From Nanobdellota archaeon (lineage in GTDB: Archaea > Nanobdellota > Nanobdellia > Parvarchaeales > Parvarchaeaceae), in the NCBI GenBank assembly GCA_021818905.1, contig JAKASS010000003.1, positions 1 to 64,000 of the forward strand: a stretch of DNA of 64,000 nt. The letters run 5' to 3'. This document shows, one piece after another, positions 10,709-54,876 of this stretch; position 1 is the first letter of the stretch, and the number at the start of each line of letters is the position of its first letter. A program made the translations under genes and the position numbers. The notes below the pieces were generated by a model. That model worked only from the letters and a program-made list of their open reading frames with translations, was not told where the DNA came from and did no database searches.

Positions 10709-11599
10709 TCACATTGTAGTCACTATAACTTCTCCAGAATCAAACAGGAGGGTGTGTTCAAATTGCGCCACTAATCCATTGTCCCTTTCTTTCAGCACGT
10801 TAAATTCATACAGCGCGCCTGAGTTTACCATGCCCTTCAATTCTAGGTCTGCAAATTTGCCGAACTTTTCAAGTATCCAGCGCTTCGCGAATGGAAGACC
10901 ATGATATTCTTTTGATATAAAATCCAAGATCTCCCGGCCAAGTTTGGCCCTCGGCGATTTCAGGTTATTAAGCATCAGTATCTGTACTTCTGAACTGTCT
11001 ACTACGTAACCTCCCCCGGTGGTTGCAAAAGGTTCTATAGCTATGACTCCTTCTTTTCTTAAGGTCTTTTTAGATCCTGTAGCACAGTTCGGTATAAAAT
11101 CTCCTTCGTGTATCTCATAACGCTTTATCCCATGCCCGCCTAGGTTTACTATCGGTGAAAAACCTCGCGACCTTATTGTTTCTTCTATGGCATGACTTAT
11201 ATCGTCTATTTTCCCTACTGGTTTCGCGACCTTTATAGCCTCTGCTAGGGCGGCATGAGCAGCTTTGACTAGGTCATTGTTATTCTGACCGACTACGACT
11301 GTTGCGGCGGTATCAGAAACGAATCCGTCTATGCTTGCGCCGACATCTATTTTTAGAATGTCGCCTTCTTTAAGAACGATTTCATCGTTAAATTTCGGCG
11401 TGTAATGTGCAGCTATCTGGTTGATCGAAAGGTTCGGAGGGAAAGCGGGCTTTACGTTTAATTCGGCCATTTTTTTTTCTATTTCTCTTGCTAACCTAAG
11501 GAGAGATTCGCCCGGTTTGACCAATGAGACTGCGTATTCTCTTATTGTCTTTCCCGCCTTTCCTGCTAGGATCCACTTCTCCCTTTCTTGTGCTTCCAT
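10709..11599 (-). CDS. map: methionine aminopeptidase, type II
   Basis: A 296-residue dinuclear metalloenzyme that removes initiator methionine. The metal ligands are visible in LKIDVGASIDGFVSDTAATV (two Asp), GGHGIKRYEIHEG (His), VIAIEPFATTG (Glu) and the last Glu in LVAQFEHTLLF; the insertion between the last two marks the type II enzyme of archaea and eukaryotes. It lies between polB (37-base gap) and fen1 (one base). Confidence 0.95.
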   Translation of the reverse strand: MEAQEREKWILAGKAGKTIREYAVSLVKPGESLLRLAREIEKKMAELNVKPAFPPNLSINQIAAHYTPKFNDEIVLKEGDILKIDVGASIDGFVSDTAATVVVGQNNNDLVKAAHAALAEAIKVAKPVGKIDDISHAIEETIRSRGFSPIVNLGGHGIKRYEIHEGDFIPNCATGSKKTLRKEGVIAIEPFATTGGGYVVDSSEVQILMLNNLKSPRAKLGREILDFISKEYHGLPFAKRWILEKFGKFADLELKGMVNSGALYEFNVLKERDNGLVAQFEHTLLFDSGEVIVTTM

Positions 11600-11636
11600 A
11601 TTACATAGTGTAGTAACCAGAATTAAAAATTATCTA

Positions 11637-13955
11637 TTAGAAATTCGACAGCGACTCGTTCTTCCTTCCGACTATATCGTCTTCAGAATAACCCAATACG
11701 CTTAGTATCTGCATCACAGATGGAACCAGCTGCTGGTTGATGTAATAGTCTGGATCATACTTTATCTTATTTTTCTTGGCAATGTCAAAGAGAACCGAAC
11801 GGCTCGACACGTTTTCTCCTGGCCGTCCTTTTGATATTATGTATTTTATGGTATCTCCGCTAGCAAATTCTATTCCGCTTTTAGATGCAGCTGAGATATG
11901 CCTGTTCGTCTGTTTGTAAGAGGATATATCCTTATGGAGCCGTGTGAATATCGTCAGTTTTTCCAGCGGAGTTTCGCCGCCTTTTATTTCCTTTATTATT
12001 TGCCTGACGTACTCTACCGCACCTTCTTTGTCATCATTTACCAAAATCCTCTTCAATATCTCTTTTTGTGTCTCTTTGGCTATTACGGCCCAATCACGCC
12101 TGACAGACTGAAAACCCTTTATCATTAAGTTGCCCTTCTCATCCGACATTGCATATTTCTTCTTCGCGCCTTTTTCACCTGCTTTTGAACTTACGAAAAG
12201 CGCGTGGCTGTATATACCTTGAAGCTCTAGCTCCATCGGATAAGGCAGGGTCTTATTTATTCCAGCTACGAAATCGTTTATGAAAGCTTTCATCCCGTTC
12301 TTGTGCATAAATGCGCTATCTGTGTCAGCGTATATTACATCGGCTCCGTCTTTTTCTGCTTCGCTTATTACTTTGTGCACGTATTCTCGGCCCAAAGCCG
12401 TGACTTCTCCTGCACATTCAAAACAGTACCATCTTGCATTGTAATATCCGAGATAGCCATAAAATCCATTAGCAATCAGTTTCAATACCATAACTCTCGC
12501 ATTAAGCTGTTGATTCTCCTTGTCGGCTTTCAACTTCTGCTTGGCGTCTACCCTAAGCCGTATAACTTCGTCGACAGTAGATGGTATGAATCCGAGTCTT
12601 TCTTCCTTTGACTTAAAAAGCATCTTTCCATTTTCGAAGTGTATAGTAGACGGACATATGTTATGCGATACTATTATGCTGGGATAAAGACTTCTAAAAT
12701 CCACGACTGCAACGTCCTTGTATAGGCCTGGCTTTGGCTGAAAGACAAATGCTCCCACATTTATTCTCCTTATTCTTTCGTTGACTTCAAATTCGGAGGG
12801 TTTATTCGGTATAACTTCTCCTAGTTCGATAGCTTTTTTCATTATAAAGTGCTCGACAACCGCGCCAGTAGTCATTCTAGAGATGTCGGATATCGTTTGA
12901 CCGACTAGTTTATTCAATTCGCCGAAAAGATTGTACATCCTCTCGTATAGCCTGAAAGTTATGTAAGAATCTTTTATACAGTAAGTACATAGAGCGCCGG
13001 CGGTTTCCCGATTTGAGAATACGCTATCTATTTTAGCCCAGTCAAACTCTCCTTTTTTCTCGCCAAGAGTCTCAGCAGCGACTTCCTTCAGACTCAAAAC
13101 TTCTGTCTTAAGATTATAGATCGCGTATATGTTGCGTATGAAATTGAGTATGTCTATGTGAACGCTGCCATTTATTTCTGAGACTTTCCTCTTTTCTCCT
13201 TTTATCTTTATTTCGAACCCGCTAAAAAGCGGCTTTATGCCAAGAACGTCGGCTCGCTGTTTTATGTATGGCAGGTCAAAGGTGTCCGAATTATAACCGA
13301 TTAAAGTATTGAAGCCGTTTTCGGACACGAACTTTGCAAATCTTAGGATGACTTCTTTTTCGTCCTCTACTTTTTCTATGCCCTCTCCTTCCGCATCTAG
13401 CCAAGTAAAACATTTGTTTACGTTATAATTTGAAAGTGATATGGCCAAAATAGGGTCGGCCTTTGCATCTGGAAAGGCCCTTTTGGAATAAGTCTCTATA
13501 TCAAATGCTATCGCTTTCAATGGAGGATTGCCGATTTCTACGCCCATTATTTTCTTTATCCTGTCGCCGTCAACGTTCACCTTTACCCTCGAAGAAGTGC
13601 CTATTCCCTTGTCTAGAAGATATCTCTTATAAAATGGAATGTCCGCATCGTATATCTTTACGTTTAACTGCCTAAGCTTTGGCACATCCTCCGGTAATTT
13701 TGTGAAGATCTTTGATACTATTATTTTGTCTCCAAGCCTTAGTTTTTCCGTCTGCTCTATCCTTCCTATAAAAGACATGCCTGCGGTCATCTGCTCTACG
13801 CGTTCTTTGCTAGCTCCTATGTAGCAGTATGGCTCAAAAGAATCGTCGTATAATATTTTCCTCTCGCCTTTCTCGACGATCCCGAACAGTCTAACTACCG
13901 GTTTCCCATCTATAACTATGTAATCGGCGTCTATTGGAAACATCTCTAATTCCAC
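11637..13955 (-). CDS. polB: family-B DNA polymerase (PolB)
   Basis: A 772-residue replicative polymerase without an intein. The 3'-5' exonuclease motif I is AFDIETYS (D152, E154), exonuclease motif II follows at YNSDTFDLPY. Polymerase motif A is DFRSLYPSII (D419), motif B is KLIANGFYGYLGY near 492-504, and motif C is YADTDS (D544, D546). Length and order are normal for archaeal PolB. The C-terminal thumb is complete. It heads the minus-strand polB-map-fen1-DUF357 group. A 22-bp IS end lies about 70 bases upstream, between it and glmS. Confidence 0.95.
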   Translation of the reverse strand: MELEMFPIDADYIVIDGKPVVRLFGIVEKGERKILYDDSFEPYCYIGASKERVEQMTAGMSFIGRIEQTEKLRLGDKIIVSKIFTKLPEDVPKLRQLNVKIYDADIPFYKRYLLDKGIGTSSRVKVNVDGDRIKKIMGVEIGNPPLKAIAFDIETYSKRAFPDAKADPILAISLSNYNVNKCFTWLDAEGEGIEKVEDEKEVILRFAKFVSENGFNTLIGYNSDTFDLPYIKQRADVLGIKPLFSGFEIKIKGEKRKVSEINGSVHIDILNFIRNIYAIYNLKTEVLSLKEVAAETLGEKKGEFDWAKIDSVFSNRETAGALCTYCIKDSYITFRLYERMYNLFGELNKLVGQTISDISRMTTGAVVEHFIMKKAIELGEVIPNKPSEFEVNERIRRINVGAFVFQPKPGLYKDVAVVDFRSLYPSIIVSHNICPSTIHFENGKMLFKSKEERLGFIPSTVDEVIRLRVDAKQKLKADKENQQLNARVMVLKLIANGFYGYLGYYNARWYCFECAGEVTALGREYVHKVISEAEKDGADVIYADTDSAFMHKNGMKAFINDFVAGINKTLPYPMELELQGIYSHALFVSSKAGEKGAKKKYAMSDEKGNLMIKGFQSVRRDWAVIAKETQKEILKRILVNDDKEGAVEYVRQIIKEIKGGETPLEKLTIFTRLHKDISSYKQTNRHISAASKSGIEFASGDTIKYIISKGRPGENVSSRSVLFDIAKKNKIKYDPDYYINQQLVPSVMQILSVLGYSEDDIVGRKNESLSNF

Positions 13956-15812: not shown

Positions 15813-15871
15813 AATCGATAAAACAAATATTACTAAGATTATAGCTAGTATTTAAGCCTATATCCAGAGTT

Positions 15872-16976
15872 TACGCTTGTGCATAAGTGCTTTATAGGAT
15901 CACTGCTTCTGCAAGGATATGGCGTCTAATATCGCTAAAAACAGGGTAGAAAGGAGTGGAGGCTGCCTTGACAAACGGAGTAAACCATATGACAAGGGAT
16001 CGTCGCCTCCAGAAATGTGAGGCAGTGATAGGTAATATAGTCGACTGGAAGCAAAATGAGCGCCCTGCGCTGCTTTCAATGGACGAAGACGAGTCCGGGA
16101 GGCCTTTCCTTTATTCGGACGAGCTTATCACAAAGATAAGCTTCTTGAGGTCCATGTTCTGCGACAAGCTTATCCCCACCGAAGCTTTGACGAGGAGGCT
16201 TTACGGCAGCTCTCCAGACCATACCACGATAAGCAGGAGGCTTTACCGCCTTGATGTGAAATGGATCATCGACAAGAAACGCAGGAAAGGAAGGCTCTTG
16301 GCGATAGACGCCACAGGGATGTCCATCTGCCGTACGGGAAGCTACAGGCATTCAAAATACGGGGGAACGCCTAGATTCTGCAAACTACATGCTTTGATCG
16401 ACCCCGATACCAAAGAGATCGTGGACTTAAGGGTCACCACAGACCGCTGTCATGACAATAGGAAGTTCCGTCCCATAGTCAGGGAAGCCGCGAAAAGAGG
16501 GGACACCGTCTACGCCGACGGAGCTTATGATTCAAAGGAGAACTTTGACTATCTCGCAAGGAACGGCATCAGAAGCGGCATAAAGATAAGGAGGAACTTC
16601 TCCACCAAGGCTGGAGGGAGCTACGCCAGGCAGAAAGCCGTGATGGAGCAGTTCGGGATATCGACTGTGCGTCTTAAGGGAAGGCTCCATTTCCTGCCTA
16701 CCGAAGGGGTCGTCTTCGACAAGATAGGATACTACCAGCAAAAATGGAAGGAAAAGGTGGGATATGGAAAAAGATGGCTGGTCGAGTCCTTCTTCTCCGC
16801 CTTCAAACGCCGCTTTGGAGAGCACGTATGCTCCCGGAGATGGAGGTCTGTGCAGAACGAGCTCAAGCTGAAGGCGATGCCTTACAATAAGCTTCTCGAA
16901 ACGTAAGCCGATACGAGAAAGATGAAAGACCGCTAGCTGTGGCTATCGCCTTCTAGGCTAGTCATGCACAGGCGTA
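15872..16976 (+). mobile_element. IS5-type insertion sequence, complete copy
   Basis: The left end is TACGCTTGTGCATAAG at 15872 and the right end TATGCACAGGCGTA ends at 16976: imperfect inverted repeats around one intact-looking transposase gene, 1105 bp in all. The flanks share TT (15870-71 and 16977-78), possibly a 2-bp target duplication but too short to prove it. The right end abuts a truncated IS6-type fragment, so the element probably landed in or next to that older insertion. Relics of the same family are at 1-126, 14026, 46058, 54748 and 58800. Confidence 0.9.
15956..16906 (+). CDS. IS5-type DDE transposase
   Basis: A 316-residue transposase if read from GTG at 15956; an ATG at 15989 (MTRDRRLQ) is an equally good start. 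The catalytic residues are D118 (LLAIDATGMS), D188 (VYADGAYDS) and E277 (WLVESFFSAFKRRFGE). No frameshift or internal stop is seen, so the copy may be functional. The preceding 80 bases between the left repeat and the start codon are strongly conserved in the relics at 46058 and 58800, suggesting a needed terminal binding region or promoter. Confidence 0.92.
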   Translation: MEAALTNGVNHMTRDRRLQKCEAVIGNIVDWKQNERPALLSMDEDESGRPFLYSDELITKISFLRSMFCDKLIPTEALTRRLYGSSPDHTTISRRLYRLDVKWIIDKKRRKGRLLAIDATGMSICRTGSYRHSKYGGTPRFCKLHALIDPDTKEIVDLRVTTDRCHDNRKFRPIVREAAKRGDTVYADGAYDSKENFDYLARNGIRSGIKIRRNFSTKAGGSYARQKAVMEQFGISTVRLKGRLHFLPTEGVVFDKIGYYQQKWKEKVGYGKRWLVESFFSAFKRRFGEHVCSRRWRSVQNELKLKAMPYNKLLET

Positions 16977-16978
16977 TT

Positions 16979-45911: not shown

Positions 45912-46057
45912 TTAATCACTTCCTTATTACACTAAATTAGTGCCACTACTTCTGATGCGTTGCATCATCATAGAGACAGCTCTAGTCGGAGTCTTGAGAG
46001 TTGTTATCACCATACTTAGTTAAACAGAAGGGCCGTTAAATAGGTTTCCTCGAATGG

Positions 46058-46160
46058 TACGCGTGTGCATAAGTGCTTTATAGAATGGCTGCTTCTGCAA
46101 GGATATGACGTCTAATATCGCTAAAATAAAGTCGTATGGTAGTGGAGGCGACTTTACACA
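46058..46160 (+). mobile_element. left-end relic of the IS5-type element
   Basis: About 103 bases match the left end of the complete element (15872-15975), from TACGCGTGTGCATAAGTGC through GGATATGACGTCTAATATCG and the start of the transposase region (AGTGGAGGC), then similarity stops. No transposase remains. It lies in the 315-base gap before the toxin-antitoxin pair and marks the left border of the accessory island. Confidence 0.8.
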
Positions 46161-46226: not shown

Positions 46227-46457
46227 ATGGTAAAGGAGATCAGCACGATACAGTTAGATAAGTCTGTCATATCGGATTTAAAGAAACTTAAAAGATCGCC
46301 CAGGGAGACGTACGTAGAATTGATAAGATACTTGATTACTCTAGCTAAAAGAGACGACCTAAAGAACCAATACGATGAATTTTTACACAAGACCCAGCAA
46401 AAAAAGATGAAAGAATTATGGGACAACAAAGAAGATGAGAAGTGGGAAAATGTTTGA
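46227..46457 (+). CDS. antitoxin, ribbon-helix-helix type
   Basis: A 76-residue protein. STIQLDKSVISDLKKLKRSP then RETYVELIRYLITLAKR is a ribbon-helix-helix DNA-binding fold; the charged C-terminal half (FLHKTQQKKMKELWDNKEDE) would wrap the toxin. A TATA-like TTTATATAG at 46192-46200 precedes it, and the GTATTATAC at 46200-46208 could be an autoregulatory operator. It overlaps the MazF-like toxin gene. Confidence 0.8.
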   Translation: MVKEISTIQLDKSVISDLKKLKRSPRETYVELIRYLITLAKRDDLKNQYDEFLHKTQQKKMKELWDNKEDEKWENV

Positions 46458-46764
46458 CCCCGGTGATGTAGTTATAACCGAGGTGCAGTTTACAGATACG
46501 TTTGAAATAAAAAGACGCCCCGCACTTGTCCTGTTCGAAGAATTTGATAATGTAGTGATAGCCGGGATAACCAGTAATACTGGCATGGAAGGAGTCTCTA
46601 TATCTAAAAAGGACGGTGCTGTCAAGGATAGCGTGATAAAGTTAAATTATATTTTTACCGTTTCAACAAAAATGATTGAAAGGAAACTTTTCACATTAAA
46701 CAAAGAGAAAAAGAGATTGGTCTTTCAAGAACTTACAAAACGCTTGAGCCCGCTTAACAGTTAA
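46450..46764 (+). CDS. MazF/PemK-like toxin
   Basis: A 104-residue protein of the MazF/PemK/CcdB fold, sequence-specific mRNA interferases. FDPGDVVITEVQFTDTFEIK and RRPALVLFEEFDNVVIAGIT match the family's first strands, with VIKLNYIFTVSTKMIERKL as the later block. I start at the Met of MFDPGDVV; an ATG at 46435 is possible. The gene ends seven bases before the 45-bp direct repeat. Confidence 0.8.
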   Translation: MFDPGDVVITEVQFTDTFEIKRRPALVLFEEFDNVVIAGITSNTGMEGVSISKKDGAVKDSVIKLNYIFTVSTKMIERKLFTLNKEKKRLVFQELTKRLSPLNS

Positions 46765-46770
46765 ATCGCA

Positions 46771-46815
46771 TTCTGTGGAGCAGATTGCCCAAAAATCGCT
46801 TTCGGAACTACTGGG
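46771..46815. repeat. 45-bp direct repeat, left copy
   Basis: Forty-three of 45 bases equal those at 53148-53192, beside tRNA-Leu. Core: CAGATTGCCCAAAAATC then CTTTCGGAACTACTGGG. The two copies have the same orientation and bound 6.3 kb. Just right of this copy the segment CTTTCGGA pairs with TCCGAAAG at 46826-46833, making a hairpin. Confidence 0.85.
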
Positions 46816-46886
46816 AATCAGTACCTCCGAAAGTGAAAAATAACAAACTTCTAACATATAAATAGTATTACCTACATTTAAACAAA

Positions 46887-47156
46887 ATGCAAGGAAAACA
46901 TAAAAATCATAACTTGGTAAGGTTCGCTTGGCTTCTAATTGGAATCGGCGCACTGATAGTTATACTGGATATCATTGGTCCTAGTGGTGGTTGCGCTGTG
47001 GGATTGCCGATTTTTCCAATAAATGCGACAAGCACCACAGGTTCTCAATGTGCGTCTTTAGCGGTAAATTATAATCCATATAATTGGTTTTTAGGTCTTG
47101 GGTTTGCGCTCATTATTATTGGTGCTGCAATAGAGATTGTTCTCTATTACCAATAA
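46887..47156 (+). CDS. small two-helix membrane protein
   Basis: An 89-residue protein with two hydrophobic helices (about 10-30 and 62-84) and an outer loop with two cysteines (GGCAV and QCASL). Not recognised. It is the first gene inside the direct repeats and ends two bases from the convergent transposase pseudogene. A TATA-like sequence (ACATATAAATAG) at 46856 sits about 26 nt before the start. Confidence 0.55.
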   Translation: MQGKHKNHNLVRFAWLLIGIGALIVILDIIGPSGGCAVGLPIFPINATSTTGSQCASLAVNYNPYNWFLGLGFALIIIGAAIEIVLYYQ

Positions 47157-47158
47157 AG

Positions 47159-48691
47159 TTATCCGTCTGGATTCTTAGTAGCTAAAAGTCTGATAGAAAA
47201 CATTCTAGCGGTTATCATCGTCTTAGTCGTCCTTATGCCTAAAAATGCCATAATTAGTAGGTCCACCAATATCCAACAGTTGTATAATATTACTGAAAGC
47301 ATAAAGTAGAAGTATCTTATAATATAGTTTATCGATGTCGTCTTGCCCCTGAAATTATACTTCTTTACACGATATCCTGTCTCAATCTGCCAACGCCTTC
47401 TGTACATATCCGCGATTTTCTGCGCAAAAAGGATGTCCTGCGGACCTATGTCGATGTTAGTTGCAAATCCTTGTCTGCCTCGGTCGCCTTCTATGACCGC
47501 CAAGTTGAACTTGCAATCTCCCATAACTGCATTTCTTTGTATAAATGGCGTGACTCTGGTCTTACTGTTCTTCATTGCATTATTGCTTTCCTTCATCGGC
47601 ATTATAAACTTTACGTCTAGTTTGTTTAGTCTTCTTATGCACTCAGACCCTAGAAAACCTCTATCAAGAAGTATTGTACCTATATGGATTCTTTCTTTTG
47701 CAAACGACACTAATCTTTCGACTAAATCATTCTAATCGTCTTGTGGAAAGACTGGCAGGGCGAATAAAGTTAACCTTTGACCATGATTTACTATGTCAAT
47801 TGTGATGAACTTGAAACACCATTTCGTGCCTCTTTCTGGTTTGGTGCCGATGATTGCTGGATGTTCGGGATTTCCGTAGAAGAACCAGGGTGTTGCGTCT
47901 ATTGCTAAATCTAGTTTACGGCCCAGAATCGAGCCGCCTTTCTTAGCCATTTTGAAGACCATGTCAAACAGATCATAGAATATCCTTTGTATTTCTCCGT
48001 AATCGAACTTCTTAAGGTGGTAGAATAGCGTGTCTGCGGATGGCATTCTTTTTGACGATGTTTCCGCCAATATCTTTGATCCGCCTTCTGCGAAGTTTTG
48101 AGTTGCTGCGATGTTTATAAGCAAACCAAGAAAATCATCTTCTTTAAAGACGGAGTTTTGCTTAATGTTAAAACTTAGTTTTTGTCTGAGTTTTGTCCTG
48201 ACTAACCTGAGTAGTTCTTTTTCCTTAACATTCTTGTTTTGTATTACGGAGTTCTCTTTGCGCAGTTCCTTTGACTTATTTTCTAAAGAAACGTCATCGA
48301 ATATGATGTTAAATTTATTTGTAAGTTCTTTTATTATTGCTATAACTTGATTAGCTAACTCTAAGATTTCTGGGTTTAGTGTAAAAATAAAGTGTGAAAA
48401 ATCTCGTCGCATTGGTAAAATTACTTTATCGGCATCTTTGTCGAAACCAATGTTTATTGCATCTTCAAGATGACCATTTAGATAAACTATCAGTTTTCTC
48501 TGCGACTTAATCCCTTTAATTATCATAAAAATGTAAGCTTTGATCAGCGAATCGGAAGAATATTTTCGCTTTGAGGATATTTTCGGTAATAAGTCAATTT
48601 GTTTTAAAATGTCGGATAACAGAAACATTTTGGATTTGGAACTAACAAAAATCGAACGAATTTTACGCATTAACTCGTTATTTTCTTTCAT
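47159..48691 (-). pseudogene. ISH3/IS4-like transposase interrupted by one in-frame TAG
   Basis: Two minus-strand frames, 48691-47732 and 47710-47159, are in the same frame and separated by a single amber codon at 47732-47734. Joined, they give a 510-residue DDE transposase: first Asp in LDLAIDATPWFFYGN, second in TILLDRGFLGSECI, Glu in YRRRWQIETGYRVKKYNF. The TAG falls between the first and second Asp. The coding sequence is otherwise clean, so the mutation is young or the codon is sometimes read through. I could not find convincing terminal repeats. Confidence 0.8.
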
Positions 48692-48773
48692 ACAAGTGAT
48701 TTACTTACAAGTCATTCACTTATATTATAAAAACGAAAAATATATAAGCTTTTCGCTTGTAAGTTAATAAGTG
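48692..48773. promoter_or_regulatory. operator array before the winged-helix gene
   Basis: Two head-to-tail 15-bp units, ACAAGTGATTTACTT (48692-48706) and ACAAGTCATTCACTT (48707-48721), 13 of 15 identical, and an inverted copy CTTGTAAGTTAATAAGTG at 48756-48773 that ends four bases before the ATG. The spacer has the TATA-like AAATATATAAG. Such an arrangement is typical of autoregulation by the adjacent DNA-binding protein. Confidence 0.6.
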
Positions 48774-48777
48774 TGAT

Positions 48778-49035
48778 ATGGTGAAGTATATCCCAAAATG
48801 GTTAATAAAACGTCTAAGTAAATTATGGGCAGCGTATAAAGAAAAGGAATTTACTTTTGAGGAGGCAACAAAGGCGCTGCCTGAAGACGACCCTAGAAAC
48901 TTAGCTATGGTGCTTTCTGACTTAAATAAAAGTGGGTGGATAGAAACCAAACAAGATCCAAAAAATAAGAGGAAGACCCTTTACAAAATAAAGCAAGGTT
49001 CTATCGTAAATGAGCTTATAAAAATAGAGCTTTAA
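48778..49035 (+). CDS. winged-helix regulator of the helicase-nuclease
   Basis: An 85-residue basic protein: KEFTFEEATKALPEDDPRN, LAMVLSDLNKSGWIETKQDP and KTLYKIKQGS form a winged helix (recognition helix then a beta wing). It resembles small wHTH antitoxin or repressor proteins, such as the DNA-binding half of AbiE-type systems. It lies between its likely operators and the 958-residue gene 69 bases on, whose own leader (ACTTAAGTAACTTATG) partly repeats the operator motif. Repressor of the pair is inference. Confidence 0.7.
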   Translation: MVKYIPKWLIKRLSKLWAAYKEKEFTFEEATKALPEDDPRNLAMVLSDLNKSGWIETKQDPKNKRKTLYKIKQGSIVNELIKIEL

Positions 49036-49104
49036 TTATCGTTTTAAAGCAGATGAAATTTGAAACTAAAATTAGTATTATATTAGCTTTAACTTAAGTA
49101 ACTT

Positions 49105-51981
49105 ATGGGTTACTATAGCGATTCAGAATTAATTAGAAAGCTAAAGGTAAGACAACATAAAAATTATATTTCTACAAAGGAACATAAATTTGAGGGAATT
49201 TTATTTAAAAAACGGATCACTAACCCAGACGACTTGCCTGCCGAAATAAGAAAAATGGATACATTTAATAAAATACGCAATTTTTTCCCGATACAGATTA
49301 AAGCATTCGACGCCGGAATTTTAAATCACAGAAATTTAGTACTTTGCGCACCGACTGGTATGGGAAAAACTCTACCAATAGACATTTCAGCTATTAAGAC
49401 CGTTGTTGATGGTCATAAAAAAGTAATATTTTTAGAACCTTATCTCGCAATAACGAACCAAAAGGTAGGAACGTTAGCTAATGAAACTTTAAATATAATT
49501 CCTGGACAATTTACTGGAGAAACGAATGATAATCCTTCTAGATCAAATATAATTTACGCCACCGCTGAAAAACTGTTTCTAGCGATACAAAATAGAGAAA
49601 TCTGGTTAAATGATGTTGGTTTACTAGTTGTTGATGAATGTGACATTCTGAATGATATTAACCGGGGCGCAATTCTAGAAGAAGTAATTAGTTGCTTTAT
49701 AACTCTATACAAAGATGCACAGATTGTGATGTTGTCGGCGACATTATCTAATGGAGAAGATTTGGCCAAATGGATTGGGGGAACATACATAAGTGATAAT
49801 ACGCGTAATGTTAAGATAAAATACGAACTTTATCCGACATTTGATTTCACTGTAGAAGAATTAAAAAAGATTGAAGAGCAAGAAAATCAAATCTTTATCA
49901 CATTAGAAAATCCGATAAAACCGCTAGAAAATAAAAACCCGTCTGAAAATGAGATATTAGTTGCCACCTCCACTAGAAAGGAGGCAAAAAAACTATGTTG
50001 GAAATTACTAAAATCTAGAGGTACTCACTCATCTACTCAAGACCTTGGTAGATATTTAAGTGAATTAGGAAAAAAAATAAAAAGGGAAGCAAAGTATGGG
50101 ATGGATAAGATTTCTAAGATGGTGTCTATAACCGTTCATGCTGAAGTTGCAGTTCATAACGCGGGTTTAACAAGAAAGCAAAGAACTTTAATAGAAAGCG
50201 CATTCGAAGAAAAACTTATAAAAATATTAGTATGTACCCCAACTCTAAATAGAGGAATTAATTTGCAGCTTAAAAAACTTATTTTATACAATGGAATAAA
50301 AAAAGCGGAGGGATTGATGACTGTATCAGAATTCCATCAGCTATGTGGGCGTGTTGGGAGACCTGGTCAAGAAAACGTGGGTGAGGTTATAATATGTTGC
50401 AATAGCTTTGAGGAGATGGTCGTTGCGAAGGAGAAAATAATGGGACGATATGAACTCGTTGAATCCAAATTAAAACCGCACATCGCAAGTTTTATTATTC
50501 TTCTTGTAGGTGCGGGATACTCTCTCAAGATAATAAGCCAAATTTTAATGAATACTCTATTCGCTTCTATGAATTTTGAGTCACCCATAGTTAAAGATTT
50601 TAATGAAGCGGCTTTGCTGTCTACTATAAAAAGTGCGCCAACAATTTTCGATTTAATAAATGAAACGCCAAAATTAACAAAATTCGGGGAACTATGTTTT
50701 AGGTATAGTGGCTACGAACTAAAGGATATAAAAGAACTATGTAAGTCAATAACTAAGAAAGCAAAGGATGAGACACTGAATAAAAGTGATTTAATTGAGC
50801 TAATAAACACTTTGATTTCTAAAAGAAAAAGTCAACATGCGGAATGGACTTTGCTTCTAAATGCTTGGTTAAGTGGTGATAAAAATGTTCCTAAGCCTCT
50901 AGAAACTGAAAAAACGGATTTTGGAACGAAAGACTTTAAAGAGTTTAAAAAACGATCTAAAAATATAAGTAATCTAATTTGTTCACTTATAGAATATAAT
51001 GACATTGATAAATCTTCAATTTTTTGGATATTCGGATTACCAAATTGCATTGAATTCGGGCTGGACCCTATTAAATACGGAGAGTTAGCCGCGATATCGA
51101 ATAATAGAAAGCAGGCATGTTTACTTACAGAGGGTTTTGATGGCAGCATAAAAATAGCGAGCGAAAAAACGCTTAATGAATACAGAGAGATATTAGGACA
51201 TAACTCATTTGCATCTTCTATGGGTATACTTAAAAAATTAAATAAAATATTAGGAAAACCGGAGCGAGTGAGCGTCGGCGAAGCAGTTAATTTTATTCAT
51301 TGTCCGTTGTCGTTTTTATTAGACTATTATTACAGCTTAAAGAATATGGAAATGCTAGAGAAAGATATACAAGAAAAAACAGAAATTGGGGGAAATGTAC
51401 ATAAATATATACATAAGTTCTGTGAATATTGGAATCACGTAGGAACGATAGTAAAGGCAAAAGGGCTTACATTAGACTTAATTGGAAGAGATTCTCCTAA
51501 TAATATTGACGAAATAACCTCTGCTTTTAATAATTTCTGTAATTTTTTACTATCAAATAATTTTAAAGCTGCGAACTCCTCTGAAAAAGTTATAGAAAGT
51601 AAAAAATTGGAAATTCAAGGCATATTAGATTTAGTGCTTTTGGATTATAATAATTATTTAACATTAATAGAAATAAAATCTGGCGACTTTCAGGAATACA
51701 GATATGAACAATGGGACCAAAATCAAATTTATTTGTATTATCTTATTTTAAGAGACTGCGACATAGATATAAAAGATGCCTTTGTTTTATATTTAAAACC
51801 TCTAACTGCGTCATATGTTGATTTAAGCGAAGAAAAATTACGAAAAATTTCTTCTTATATAGGAGCGATGCGTAATTTAATGAGTCGCGTGGACGCACTT
51901 AAAGATGAGAATCTAAGAGGACTTTGTACTTGCAGAAACTCTTCTCATAAATGCGTATGCAATCAACTTTTTGATGAATAA
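49105..51981 (+). CDS. Ski2-like helicase fused to Cas4/RecB-like nuclease
   Basis: A 958-residue fusion. Helicase: FPIQ (61-64), Walker A APTGMGKT (82-89), Walker B VVDECD (175-180), SAT (211-213), CTPTLNRGIN (377-386) and motif VI HQLCGRVGRPG (411-421), then an unassigned helical part to about 720. Nuclease: C733 (FIHCPLSF), H766 (GGNVHKYIH), D842 (GILDLVLL), E856-x-K858 (LIEIKSG), QWDQNQIYLYY (869-879), and C941, C943, C950, C952 for an iron-sulfur cluster, the Cas4/AddB pattern. It should unwind and degrade DNA. The coding sequence is visibly AT-rich and rich in AAA, ATA and TTA codons, unlike the housekeeping genes, so it was probably acquired by transfer. A defence role is inference. 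Confidence 0.85.
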   Translation: MGYYSDSELIRKLKVRQHKNYISTKEHKFEGILFKKRITNPDDLPAEIRKMDTFNKIRNFFPIQIKAFDAGILNHRNLVLCAPTGMGKTLPIDISAIKTVVDGHKKVIFLEPYLAITNQKVGTLANETLNIIPGQFTGETNDNPSRSNIIYATAEKLFLAIQNREIWLNDVGLLVVDECDILNDINRGAILEEVISCFITLYKDAQIVMLSATLSNGEDLAKWIGGTYISDNTRNVKIKYELYPTFDFTVEELKKIEEQENQIFITLENPIKPLENKNPSENEILVATSTRKEAKKLCWKLLKSRGTHSSTQDLGRYLSELGKKIKREAKYGMDKISKMVSITVHAEVAVHNAGLTRKQRTLIESAFEEKLIKILVCTPTLNRGINLQLKKLILYNGIKKAEGLMTVSEFHQLCGRVGRPGQENVGEVIICCNSFEEMVVAKEKIMGRYELVESKLKPHIASFIILLVGAGYSLKIISQILMNTLFASMNFESPIVKDFNEAALLSTIKSAPTIFDLINETPKLTKFGELCFRYSGYELKDIKELCKSITKKAKDETLNKSDLIELINTLISKRKSQHAEWTLLLNAWLSGDKNVPKPLETEKTDFGTKDFKEFKKRSKNISNLICSLIEYNDIDKSSIFWIFGLPNCIEFGLDPIKYGELAAISNNRKQACLLTEGFDGSIKIASEKTLNEYREILGHNSFASSMGILKKLNKILGKPERVSVGEAVNFIHCPLSFLLDYYYSLKNMEMLEKDIQEKTEIGGNVHKYIHKFCEYWNHVGTIVKAKGLTLDLIGRDSPNNIDEITSAFNNFCNFLLSNNFKAANSSEKVIESKKLEIQGILDLVLLDYNNYLTLIEIKSGDFQEYRYEQWDQNQIYLYYLILRDCDIDIKDAFVLYLKPLTASYVDLSEEKLRKISSYIGAMRNLMSRVDALKDENLRGLCTCRNSSHKCVCNQLFDE

Positions 51982-52057
51982 ATCTTATATTATTTAATTT
52001 TAATGCCAACGCTCTCTGGTCCAATTATTATCTGAGCACAGAATTAACACATGGTGC

Positions 52058-53026
52058 TCAGTTTTCATAGGTTCTCCTATTTTTTAGCGCCATTTGTATT
52101 TCGCTTATTTTTCGCTTACTAAAACCATTAGGTTGTTTGATATCCAAGAAAGCTTTTATAGCAACTGCTTCTTTTCCTGGAAGACAGTAAATTGCCACCT
52201 TGCCGATTATTACTGATTTAATGAGTGCATTTTTCCCTATTCGCTTGAATATCATTATATTTTTGCGGTTAGATATTACATACCCTCTGTTTATCAGATT
52301 GCACAGGATTTGAAAATAAACTCCGCCTATCCTACTGTGTTTTCCTTTTAAGTCAGACGTCCACCTGACTATTGTCGGATAGCTCACTTTTAGCATGTTA
52401 GATAGTTCAGTCTTCTGAACACCGCTCTTTATCAGCCGTCTTACCTTTTTCTTAAACTTGTCTGGATACCTTTTGAGTTCTGGCGCGCGGTTTAGCCACT
52501 TGTTAAGGGTTTTTAGGTTTATTCCTAGCTCCGCTGCGGTCTTAAGTCTGGACTTTCCTGAAGCGACTAAATCTAGCGCTTTTTTTCTAAATTCGTCCGT
52601 ATAGATTACTTGCTTGTTTGATATCGGTATGTTCCATCTGTTTATAGTGCTTATCGCTATTCCAAGACGCCCAGCCGTTTCGGTCCTGCTGAGCCCAGAA
52701 GAAAGCATTTCTACGGCTCTTTGTTTTACGCTTTCTGGTAACCTGTGATAGGTTGAAATGCCATAAAGCCATTTTGCAAGAGTTCCGTACGGGATGCCAA
52801 GTTCCGCTGATATTTTGTATCTCGACTTGCCTTCTAAAGCAAGGGCTTTAGCTTTCTCTTTTACCTCTTGCGGATAAATTCGTGCGTTAATACTTGGTAT
52901 CTGCCAAGTACTTAACGTGCCTAGGGGTACACCTAATTGCAGAGCAGTAGCATATTTTGTCATTCCTGACGTTATAAGTTCCTTTGCTTTGCTTCTGATA
53001 TCGTCGGGATACTTGCTTCCTTTCAT
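52058..53026 (-). CDS. protein with five tandem helix-turn-helix repeats
   Basis: A 322-residue protein. Five units of about 45 residues (near 6-41, 51-88, 96-132, 142-178, 187-224) each read like RSKAKELITSGMTKYATALQ followed by LGVPLGTLSTW: a homeodomain-like HTH ending in a tryptophan. The C-terminal 95 residues (FQILCNLINRGYVISNRKNI, KVAIYCLPGKEAVAIKAFLD) form an unknown, probably alpha/beta domain. Single HTHs of this type occur in transposases, but five in a row without a DDE core is unusual. It is beside the right direct repeat, where an integrase or excision protein often sits. Confidence 0.7.
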   Translation of the reverse strand: MKGSKYPDDIRSKAKELITSGMTKYATALQLGVPLGTLSTWQIPSINARIYPQEVKEKAKALALEGKSRYKISAELGIPYGTLAKWLYGISTYHRLPESVKQRAVEMLSSGLSRTETAGRLGIAISTINRWNIPISNKQVIYTDEFRKKALDLVASGKSRLKTAAELGINLKTLNKWLNRAPELKRYPDKFKKKVRRLIKSGVQKTELSNMLKVSYPTIVRWTSDLKGKHSRIGGVYFQILCNLINRGYVISNRKNIMIFKRIGKNALIKSVIIGKVAIYCLPGKEAVAIKAFLDIKQPNGFSKRKISEIQMALKNRRTYEN

Positions 53027-53147
53027 AGTATTTCATGAAAACGCATATTAAAACCGTCTTCGGTCGTTGCCCAAAACAGGCTATTTTTAGAGGGAGCTTT
53101 TTGCGAACCGATTTTCAGAAATGGGCACTGGCGGGCAATCAGTAACG

Positions 53148-53192
53148 TTCTGTGAAGCAGATTGCCCAAAAATCACTTTCGGAACTACTGGG
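53148..53192. repeat. 45-bp direct repeat, right copy
   Basis: Second copy of the repeat at 46771-46815 (two G/A differences), ending four bases before the 3' end of the tRNA-Leu gene. Its start also pairs with upstream sequence: GGGCAATC (53133-53140) and GATTGCCC (53160-53167) make an 8-bp hairpin. Confidence 0.85.
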
Positions 53193-53196
53193 GAAT

Positions 53197-53280
53197 GCAG
53201 GGAGAGGGATTTGAACCCTCGAAGGCCTAAGCCACTAGCCCCTGAAGCTAGCACGTTTGACCGGGCTTCGCTATCCCTGC
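53197..53280 (-). tRNA. tRNA-Leu(CAG)
   Basis: An 84-nt type II tRNA. Acceptor stem GCAGGGA/TCCCTGC, D arm with CCCGGTCAAA, anticodon stem CTAGC/GCTAG around loop TTCAGGG (anticodon CAG), a long variable arm (TGGCTTAGGCCTTCG) and T arm GAGGG-TTCAAAT-CCCTC. No intron and no encoded CCA. A weak TATA-like AGATATAATA lies about 10 bases upstream. Confidence 0.93.
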
Positions 53281-53324: not shown

Positions 53325-53723
53325 TTATTTGTACCCTAACGTATTTTTTACAGTTATTACGAACTCTTCGGCGTTCTTCAAAGTGTTTTCTACGGCTACT
53401 TTATCAGGTTCTATTGTCACATCATATGTACTAGCTTGTCTTATAGCCAATGCGCGATTCAAATATCTAGAAAATTTCTTTTCTAATTTTCCCGTTTTTA
53501 TGTAATAGTTACTGAAAGAGGCTACAACGCCTCGGTGCGTTTTTGGAGGCCTTATTCTTGCGCTTATTAGCGCTGCGGTGGCGGAATAGAACATTGCATA
53601 ATAAGCCAGGCTTGCGGCCGGTCTAAGCAGTGAGTTCTCAAAATTAAGATAGGACTCCTCGAGTGTCTTATCCGCTAGTTTTACGTAGCTTTCCAGTAAG
53701 CTTTTCGAATACACTTCTTCCAT
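53325..53723 (-). CDS. HEPN-domain protein (toxin of MNT-HEPN pair)
   Basis: A 132-residue all-helical HEPN protein. SLLRPAASLAYYAMFYSATAAL is the family's second helix; AIRQASTYD holds the catalytic arginine, with Tyr-Asp where other HEPN RNases have His, as in the PF05168-type subgroup. HEPN toxins are RNases or are themselves AMPylated by the MNT partner. It overlaps the MNT gene by 56 bases. It lies between the intact tRNA-Leu and the tRNA duplicate. Confidence 0.8.
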   Translation of the reverse strand: MEEVYSKSLLESYVKLADKTLEESYLNFENSLLRPAASLAYYAMFYSATAALISARIRPPKTHRGVVASFSNYYIKTGKLEKKFSRYLNRALAIRQASTYDVTIEPDKVAVENTLKNAEEFVITVKNTLGYK

Positions 53724-54075
53724 AAAGTCCTATTGCGTCTTCACTAACATTTCTTATAAACGGTGTGCCTAGCATCACCGATTTCCTCAAAGTTTCTGGC
53801 GTTACAAAAAATAAAGATATAAAAAACGCGAAATCGTTCTCCAATTCGAAGTCTACCAAGGTGTCATATGCCCTAGACGTGAAATTTAGGTCATTAGCAT
53901 ATTTAGTTAAGACCATGATGTCTATGTCGCTGCTTCTTTTGGCATGGCCTCTCGAAACAGAGCCATAGAGCACTATTGCGTCTATCTTTTTGCCAAATTT
54001 CAAAGATAGTCGCCCCGCAAATTCTTGCGCTACCCTTCTATATTCTAAGCTGATGGTCTTTGCCATATTTTTCAT
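53668..54075 (-). CDS. MNT nucleotidyltransferase (antitoxin of MNT-HEPN pair)
   Basis: A 135-residue minimal nucleotidyltransferase. IVLYGSVSRGHAKRSSDIDIMV is the GSxxR-(x)n-DxD motif; a third Asp is in TLVDFELENDF. The frame is open up to 54165 inside the tRNA fragment, but ATG 54075 (MKNMAKTIS) or 54066 is the likelier start. MNT antitoxins neutralise HEPN partners by oligo-AMPylation. See 61376-62346 for a second such pair. Confidence 0.8.
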   Translation of the reverse strand: MKNMAKTISLEYRRVAQEFAGRLSLKFGKKIDAIVLYGSVSRGHAKRSSDIDIMVLTKYANDLNFTSRAYDTLVDFELENDFAFFISLFFVTPETLRKSVMLGTPFIRNVSEDAIGLYGRSVFEKLTGKLRKTSG

Positions 54076-54135
54076 TGGGTGCTTAAACAATTTAAGCTTT
54101 TTAGATTTTAGAAGGCGCATTCTAATTGCTGTGAA

Positions 54136-54191
54136 GCCTAAGCCACTGGCCCCTGAAGCTAGCACATTTGACCGGGCTTCGCTATCCCTGC
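54136..54191 (-). pseudogene. partial duplicate of tRNA-Leu, 5' two-thirds
   Basis: Fifty-six nucleotides match the 5' part of tRNA-Leu(CAG) with two substitutions: acceptor strand, D arm, anticodon arm and part of the variable arm. The T arm and 3' acceptor strand are absent. A good TATA box (CTTTAAATAAATT on the minus strand) lies about 30 bases upstream, better than that of the intact gene, so this may be the original 5' end displaced by an insertion. Confidence 0.85.
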
Positions 54192-54668: not shown

Positions 54669-54747
54669 AACGGACACGCACCAATATTTCTTTCTAGAAG
54701 ACTTTTTCGTCTGGGAAAGTCGTGAAGGGGGGTACTTTGCCAGATAT

Positions 54748-54764
54748 TACGCTTGTGCATAACT
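54748..54764 (+). repeat. solo left terminal repeat of the IS5-type element
   Basis: TACGCTTGTGCATAACT matches the left end of the complete element for the first 15 bases. It lies in the 208-base gap before the RHH-cysDN operon; no further IS sequence is seen. About 95 bases downstream begin the operon's promoter sequences (TATTTATACT at 54841). Confidence 0.6.
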
Positions 54765-54876
54765 CCATTAAATAAGCCTAACTTCGTCTGACTTGCTTTG
54801 GACTTTCTTTCCTGCTGCGCCCAGCCGGAGAAGAAAAAAGTATTTATACTATGATTATTCTTAATTATCTATAATT

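Follow-up and report, generated by a model that had tools for sequence, protein, structure and literature searches.

A tandem helix-turn-helix protein as the probable target selector of ISH3-like transposons homing on structural RNA genes

The protein encoded at 52058..53026 (minus strand) of the window, the whole 64,000-nucleotide stretch of DNA analysed here, is the product of the right-end gene of a transposon and carries five tandem helix-turn-helix (HTH) units in an open reading frame of 322 aa. Comparison of this element with its relatives suggests that the protein is probably both the target selector and the end-binder of a family of ISH3-like transposons with structural RNA genes as their homing sites. 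Recognition of ends as well as of target is suggested by its position at the right end, the co-varying sites in that end, the phylogeny of the HTH proteins and the natural swaps between elements.

The HTH-array protein

An alignment of the units and an AlphaFold2 model place them, all on the minus strand, at residues 6-43 (52898..53011), 51-88 (52763..52876), 96-133 (52628..52741), 142-179 (52490..52603) and 187-224 (52355..52468), the fifth unit being common to most family members. The pairwise identity among the five units is 29-53%, with a mean BLOSUM62 pair score of 71.9 (−31.6 ± 4.0 when these residues are shuffled), and each unit has one Trp (residues 41, 86, 131, 177 and 222). The AlphaFold2 model of the whole protein shows a three-helix unit at each of the five positions; its overall pTM is 0.23, and the unit-to-unit arrangement is not fixed by the model. 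In Pfam the units are labelled HTH_23, HTH_28 or HTH_Tnp_1, and the Pfam scan found no transposase core in the protein. Alignment, structure prediction and Pfam labels bear out the sequence-only reading of five homeodomain-like units of about 45 residues with a Trp in each, and the Pfam scan its statement that a transposase core is absent. In a Foldseek comparison of the whole protein with known structures, the matches included the CAP repeat, Pax and Cbp1, at E-values of 0.009-0.45.

The units are followed by a C-terminal domain (approximately residues 235-318, 52073..52324, minus strand) that is conserved in the HTH family. Folded alone with AlphaFold2, it adopts an alpha-beta-alpha-beta-beta-alpha-alpha order with moderate confidence (pLDDT 71, pTM 0.58). 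Gly, Arg and Ala, but no acidic residue, occupy the columns with conservation in 90% or more of the rows. Profile searches of Pfam and the PDB gave no credible match for this domain, and Foldseek and VIA-align gave weak matches only, including winged-helix and eS10/S8 folds; the best VIA Z was 4.9, with an rmsd of 5.4 over 76 residues, which may reflect a common arrangement. Nuclease, recombinase and resolvase folds had been named as candidates for comparison with this domain, and none stood out among the weak structural matches. No signature of these three kinds was seen with profiles, Foldseek or VIA-align, which is not proof of absence, and neither an enzyme family nor a plain transcription-factor family was matched. 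The domain is probably non-catalytic and perhaps winged-helix-like.

The transposon and its ends

The transposon spans 6,372 bp (46819..53190), as defined by its paired ends and its target duplication. The terminal inverted repeats, CAGTACCTCCGAAAGTGA at the left (46819..46836, plus strand) and CAGTAGTTCCGAAAGTGA at the right (53173..53190, minus strand), are identical at 16 of 18 positions, and CAGT is present at both tips. Comparison of the ends revealed the target duplication GGAAT at 46814..46818 and at 53192..53196, the right copy reaching the discriminator base of the target tRNA-Leu(CAG) gene (53196..53280, minus strand). An extra G at 53191 separates the right tip from the duplication. 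One extra G is present at the target-proximal tip in three examined elements (the window's, C22 and G037), and the true tip at this end is perhaps CCAGTAG.

At the left end, the element encodes a small membrane protein without a family (46887..47156, plus strand; open reading frame and Pfam scan), either cargo or accessory, followed by an ISH3-like DDE transposase (47159..48691, minus strand), assigned from Pfam and from homologues at the same end. This transposase is the sole recombinase in the element and lies at the end opposite the HTH gene. Since its gene is split by one in-frame TAG, the window's copy is probably non-autonomous, that is, immobile without help; intact copies of the transposase are present elsewhere in this genome. 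The broken transposase frames were also considered as a nested insertion sequence, a reading that was rejected on account of intact homologues at the same left end of sister elements (C3, C22, G037 and G038). Next comes a small winged-HTH protein (48778..49035, plus strand; Pfam), whose counterpart in a sister element is a 93-aa protein in the same place (L007:10692-10973). The main cargo is a 958-aa fusion of a DEAD helicase and a Cas4-like PD-(D/E)XK nuclease (49105..51981, plus strand), identified with family profiles; its helicase part is Hel308/HamB-like, resembling HamB of Hachiman, and the fusion is possibly a single-gene relative of Hachiman-type defence.

A 45-bp repeat (46771-46815 and 53148-53192, 96%) had been taken as a pair of direct-repeat borders, with the HTH gene beside the right copy. 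The position is correct, the gene starting 122 bp from that copy, but the meaning given to the repeat does not stand, as the element has inverted ends: each copy is a right end, and the two belong to neighbouring elements of the same transposon family. The older of these elements survives as a remnant (46227..46813) with its right end at 46813 and a PemK/MazF-like toxin gene pair as cargo. Two ends lie back to back in 46798-46836, the right-end tip at 46813 (element leftward) and the left-end tip at 46819 (element rightward), with five bases between them.

Two further observations concern the surroundings of the element. About 0.9 kb upstream of the tRNA-Leu gene, its 5' part recurs over 56 nt (53225-53280 and 54136-54191, 96%), and between the gene and this partial copy there is an MNT/HEPN-type pair (53325-54165, minus strand), an arrangement that would fit the use of this tRNA by a further element or duplication. 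A different insertion sequence is represented in the window by scattered copies and remnants of its ends (15864-16977, 46050-46149, 54740-54770 and 1-126), which share TACGC.TGTGCATAAGTGCTTTA.

Sister elements and distribution

Elements of the same family were delimited in several genomes, and several others are truncated where a MAG contig ends. Exact target duplications flank a sister element of this genome, C3 (7,573 bp, CTTCA), and element G038 (7,693 bp, ACTCA), and a duplication plus one G was found for G037 (8,917 bp, AAAGC) and C22 (9,721 bp, GTATA(C)). In G129, from a distant genus, the element has 7,718 bp and an AGTCA duplication, and in G015 the duplication matches in four of five bases only. 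The HTH gene is the right-end gene, at the same position and on the same strand, at about 30 loci, while the other cargo changes completely, and in nine contigs the HTH gene is followed by the transposase gene on the same strand. The cargo comprises two D12 methyltransferases and a Panacea protein in C3, a copper-type ATPase (read from sequence only) in G015, and a C5 methyltransferase, an N4/N6 methyltransferase and Vsr in C6. The C6 element, at tRNA-Thr (L140:390-8633), is without a recognisable HTH gene.

A scan of 84,980 genomes with the single protein returned no relative of it, and a scan with the alignment of the HTH family returned four MAG contigs, named Parvarchaeota or Nanoarchaeota in GenBank. 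Among 280 genomes of the class, the family was present in 17 of the 28 genomes of the genus and in one genome of a sister genus, with one weak and doubtful match in another family; it was not found in the viral contigs, phages and plasmids searched. The occurrence of the HTH family is almost wholly restricted to a single genus of Parvarchaeota-type DPANN archaea. The transposase is more widespread and occurs in 14 further genera. Two of the wider elements, from other DPANN genera, have a zinc-ribbon protein of about 170 aa at the right-end position (L262:15628-16143 and L270:11895-12404). These two cases suggest that the right-end DNA-binding protein may be an exchangeable module. The G129 element, the one complete member of this wider group, is not beside a tRNA.

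Insertion beside structural RNA genes

Right ends are located 4-8 nt past the 3' ends of tRNA genes for Leu (in the window), Arg, Lys, Met, Val, Pro and Cys, and the Cys-associated HTH proteins form a clade of their own. A second HTH clade is found at tRNA-Phe and tRNA-Thr in the opposite orientation, so that the left end adjoins the tRNA. In a third kind, the left end lies just upstream of the TATA box of the 5S rRNA gene, at a near-constant distance, in about 15 of 24 genomes (Rfam matches). Offset, side and orientation of insertion are clade-specific. Of approximately 42 tRNA genes in this genome, six have an element end at their 3' side, for which we estimate a chance of about 1e-17, a rough value that allows for at most 20 random ends and assumes independence.

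The orthologue of the tRNA-Leu gene is occupied 4-5 nt past the discriminator base in 9 of 23 genomes and empty in the other 14, which is direct evidence of a polymorphic insertion. In the readable cases (tRNA-Leu in the window, tRNA-Cys in C3 and G038), the five duplicated bases are the discriminator base and the next four. Elements also accrete in tandem at one site, and the joined ends seen in the window and in several relatives arise because each newer copy enters at the same place and displaces the older ones. A full right end in G006 lies at no recognised RNA gene, and the same holds for several partial HTH genes. A left end of the family was also observed, in three genomes, a few dozen bases upstream of tRNA-Cys, near the promoter (L007:8872, L040:11099 and L128, the last with tRNA-Cys at 11531-11641), and these may represent a fourth target class; the HTH genes of the three elements fall outside the contigs or were not recognised.

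The sequence-only reading had looked to tRNA genes and element borders for homologues of the protein. They do occur at element borders, mostly beside tRNA genes, and as the C-terminal part matches no plain transcription-factor family, neither of the outcomes that would have counted against that reading was obtained.

Co-varying motif sites in the right end

The right end contains a conserved region of about 118 nt (53073..53190, minus strand), of which the first ~110 nt can be aligned nearly without gaps across 24 loci. A locus-specific motif of about 8 bp is present at +22 from the tip (site 1, TTGGGCAATCT, 53159..53169, minus strand) and again at +116-118 beside the HTH promoter (site 2, TTGGGCAACGA, 53064..53074, minus strand), just upstream of the likely BRE/TATA of the HTH gene (TTTTAATA, 53046-53053). 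The two sites co-vary between loci: they match at 8.8 of 11 positions within loci and at 7.4 of 11 between loci (permutation P ~1e-5), in a set that includes some decayed loci. The same result was obtained for 22 loci without near-duplicates, and the control stretches flanking the sites were mostly null.

Association of target with the HTH protein

HTH clade and target class correspond closely. On the HTH tree, the three target classes require two changes, which is the minimum, and none of 200 shuffles gave a value as low. All six tRNA-Cys rows fall in one clade; those of the 5S class by themselves do not resolve into a single clade. The pair C22 (tRNA-Phe) and G037 (tRNA-Thr) has transposases that are 87.5% identical and HTH proteins that are 35% identical. 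G037 and G001, both at tRNA-Thr, share 78% identity in the HTH protein and about 60% in the transposase, and for C3 and G038, both at tRNA-Cys, the values are 61% and 51%. Because near-identical transposases with unlike HTH proteins sit at different tRNAs, the comparative data, with one clean swap and two supporting pairs, suggest that the target follows the HTH protein.

Target class is broadly reflected in the transposase tree as well, which means that co-inheritance explains part of the correlation between HTH protein and target. The C6 row was disregarded in this tree, and the pairwise identities of C6 were taken from the open frame. Isotype and clade do not correspond one to one, since several right-end types occupy tRNA-Leu, and two truncated proteins with a similar N-terminus, C5 and G012, are found beside different tRNA genes, those for Arg and Lys respectively.

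Proposed role and alternatives

In the mechanism that we propose, the HTH array would bind both co-varying sites of the right end to which its gene belongs; the promoter-proximal site would provide autoregulation of the HTH gene, and the site at +22 would mark the right end for the transposase. The same array would read the tRNA or 5S gene and hold target and right end together, whereupon the transposase would cut at a fixed offset, in the tRNA-Leu case between nucleotide 72 and the discriminator base, leaving the RNA gene intact. The C-terminal domain, predicted to be winged-helix-like and non-catalytic, may contact the transposase or a partner molecule. More tentatively, the system may represent a homing strategy unrelated to that of Tn7, in which the RNA gene entered is specified by modular arrays of one to five HTH units, which also recognise their own right end through a locus-specific, co-evolving motif, and in which lineages swap the right-end protein, a zinc ribbon taking its place elsewhere.

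The most serious alternative is that the protein acts only as an end-binder and autoregulator, either repressor or activator, and that target choice lies with the transposase itself or with a host factor present at tRNA and 5S genes, as in the parallel of the yeast retrotransposons that target Pol III genes. Three observations agree with this alternative: the co-varying sites are found at the right end and the HTH promoter instead of the target, the transposase phylogeny broadly tracks target class, and several right-end types use the same tRNA-Leu. On the other hand, it does not account for near-identical transposases with very different HTH proteins at different tRNAs, nor for more divergent transposases that share a target when their HTH proteins are similar, and the clade-specific offset, side and orientation are not expected from a general host factor. 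We consider it unlikely, leaving it a quarter of the weight because the swap argument rests on few pairs and the transposase tree tracks targets.

It is very improbable that the protein is an unrelated transcription factor carried near the border as passenger cargo. Tandem homeodomain-like HTH units do occur in regulators such as Cbp1, and the gene's own promoter carries one of the two motif sites; yet the gene keeps its position and strand at the ~30 loci while RM genes, copper ATPase, helicase-nuclease and toxin-antitoxin genes are exchanged around it, and in more distant members of the superfamily its place is taken by a zinc-ribbon protein. The 45-bp direct repeat beside a tRNA gene had also suggested an integration or excision factor acting on att-type repeats, that is, the recombination directionality factor of a tyrosine-recombinase element, an idea that we regard as barely credible, its main points being refuted by the end structure: the repeats are the ends of two adjacent DDE elements, each with inverted ends and a 5-bp duplication, and there is no integrase among the open reading frames of the element.

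If the protein is indeed a target selector and end-binder, site-directed transposition would have been invented independently in tiny-genome DPANN archaea, and defence and metal-resistance cargo would move between safe sites at tRNA and 5S genes. The natural swaps of HTH arrays would make the reading of a long site by an array, and the hand-over to a transposase, directly testable, and the system could provide a compact targeting tool.

Comparison with known systems

The ISH3 family is defined by CRGT termini, 4-5 bp direct repeats, a Y-(2)-R-(3)-E-(3)-R motif, archaeal hosts, a length of 1225-1500 bp and a transposase as the only gene (PMC2266710). Against the ISH3 model NF033541 our transposases score 159-162 bits (E ~1e-47), by far the best family, with a curated cut-off of 225 bits, and they contain the Y-(2)-R-(3)-E-(3)-R motif (YRRRWQIETGYR). 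The elements resemble this IS4-related DDE family, whose transposase is the nearest, in their CAGT termini, 5-bp duplications, motif and archaeal hosts, but differ in their length of 6,372-9,721 bp, their multi-gene content with cargo and a tandem-HTH gene, and their fixed RNA-gene targets.

Tn7-like elements provide the best-known dedicated target selectors, and Tn7 makes a 5-bp target duplication. The elements described here are similar in logic, with a DDE transposase, a 5-bp duplication, insertion at a safe site next to an essential gene, defence cargo and, as proposed selector, a multi-HTH protein. In CAST I-D, a TnsD that has multiple C-terminal HTH domains homes to tRNA-Leu (PMC10293859). 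On the HTH array the Pfam TnsD model reaches 28.5 bits, short of its 32.4-bit cut-off, and the open reading frames of the element contain no TnsABC or TniQ/TnsD core (DDE_Tnp_1, helicase, wHTH and HTH array only in Pfam). Unlike Tn7-like elements, ours use an ISH3-like transposase and insert 4-8 nt past the tRNA, as opposed to 30-33.

Casposons are archaeal elements with terminal inverted repeats and target duplications that are found in part at tRNA genes. Our elements differ from them in having a DDE transposase, a 5-bp duplication and, in a Pfam scan of the element's open reading frames, no Cas1. For the protein itself, a further comparison is with Cbp1 of Sulfolobales, which has three HTH units and binds CRISPR repeats and IS110 ends (PMC10883916). 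Both consist of tandem homeodomain-like HTH units, and Cbp1 reads along a DNA repeat and binds transposon ends, much as we propose here for the HTH array. The HTH protein scores 32.4 bits against the Cbp1 model NF040595, which has a cut-off of 140 bits. Whereas Cbp1 is a host-encoded protein of three units that acts on CRISPR arrays, the present protein has five units and a C-terminal domain and is carried by a transposon.
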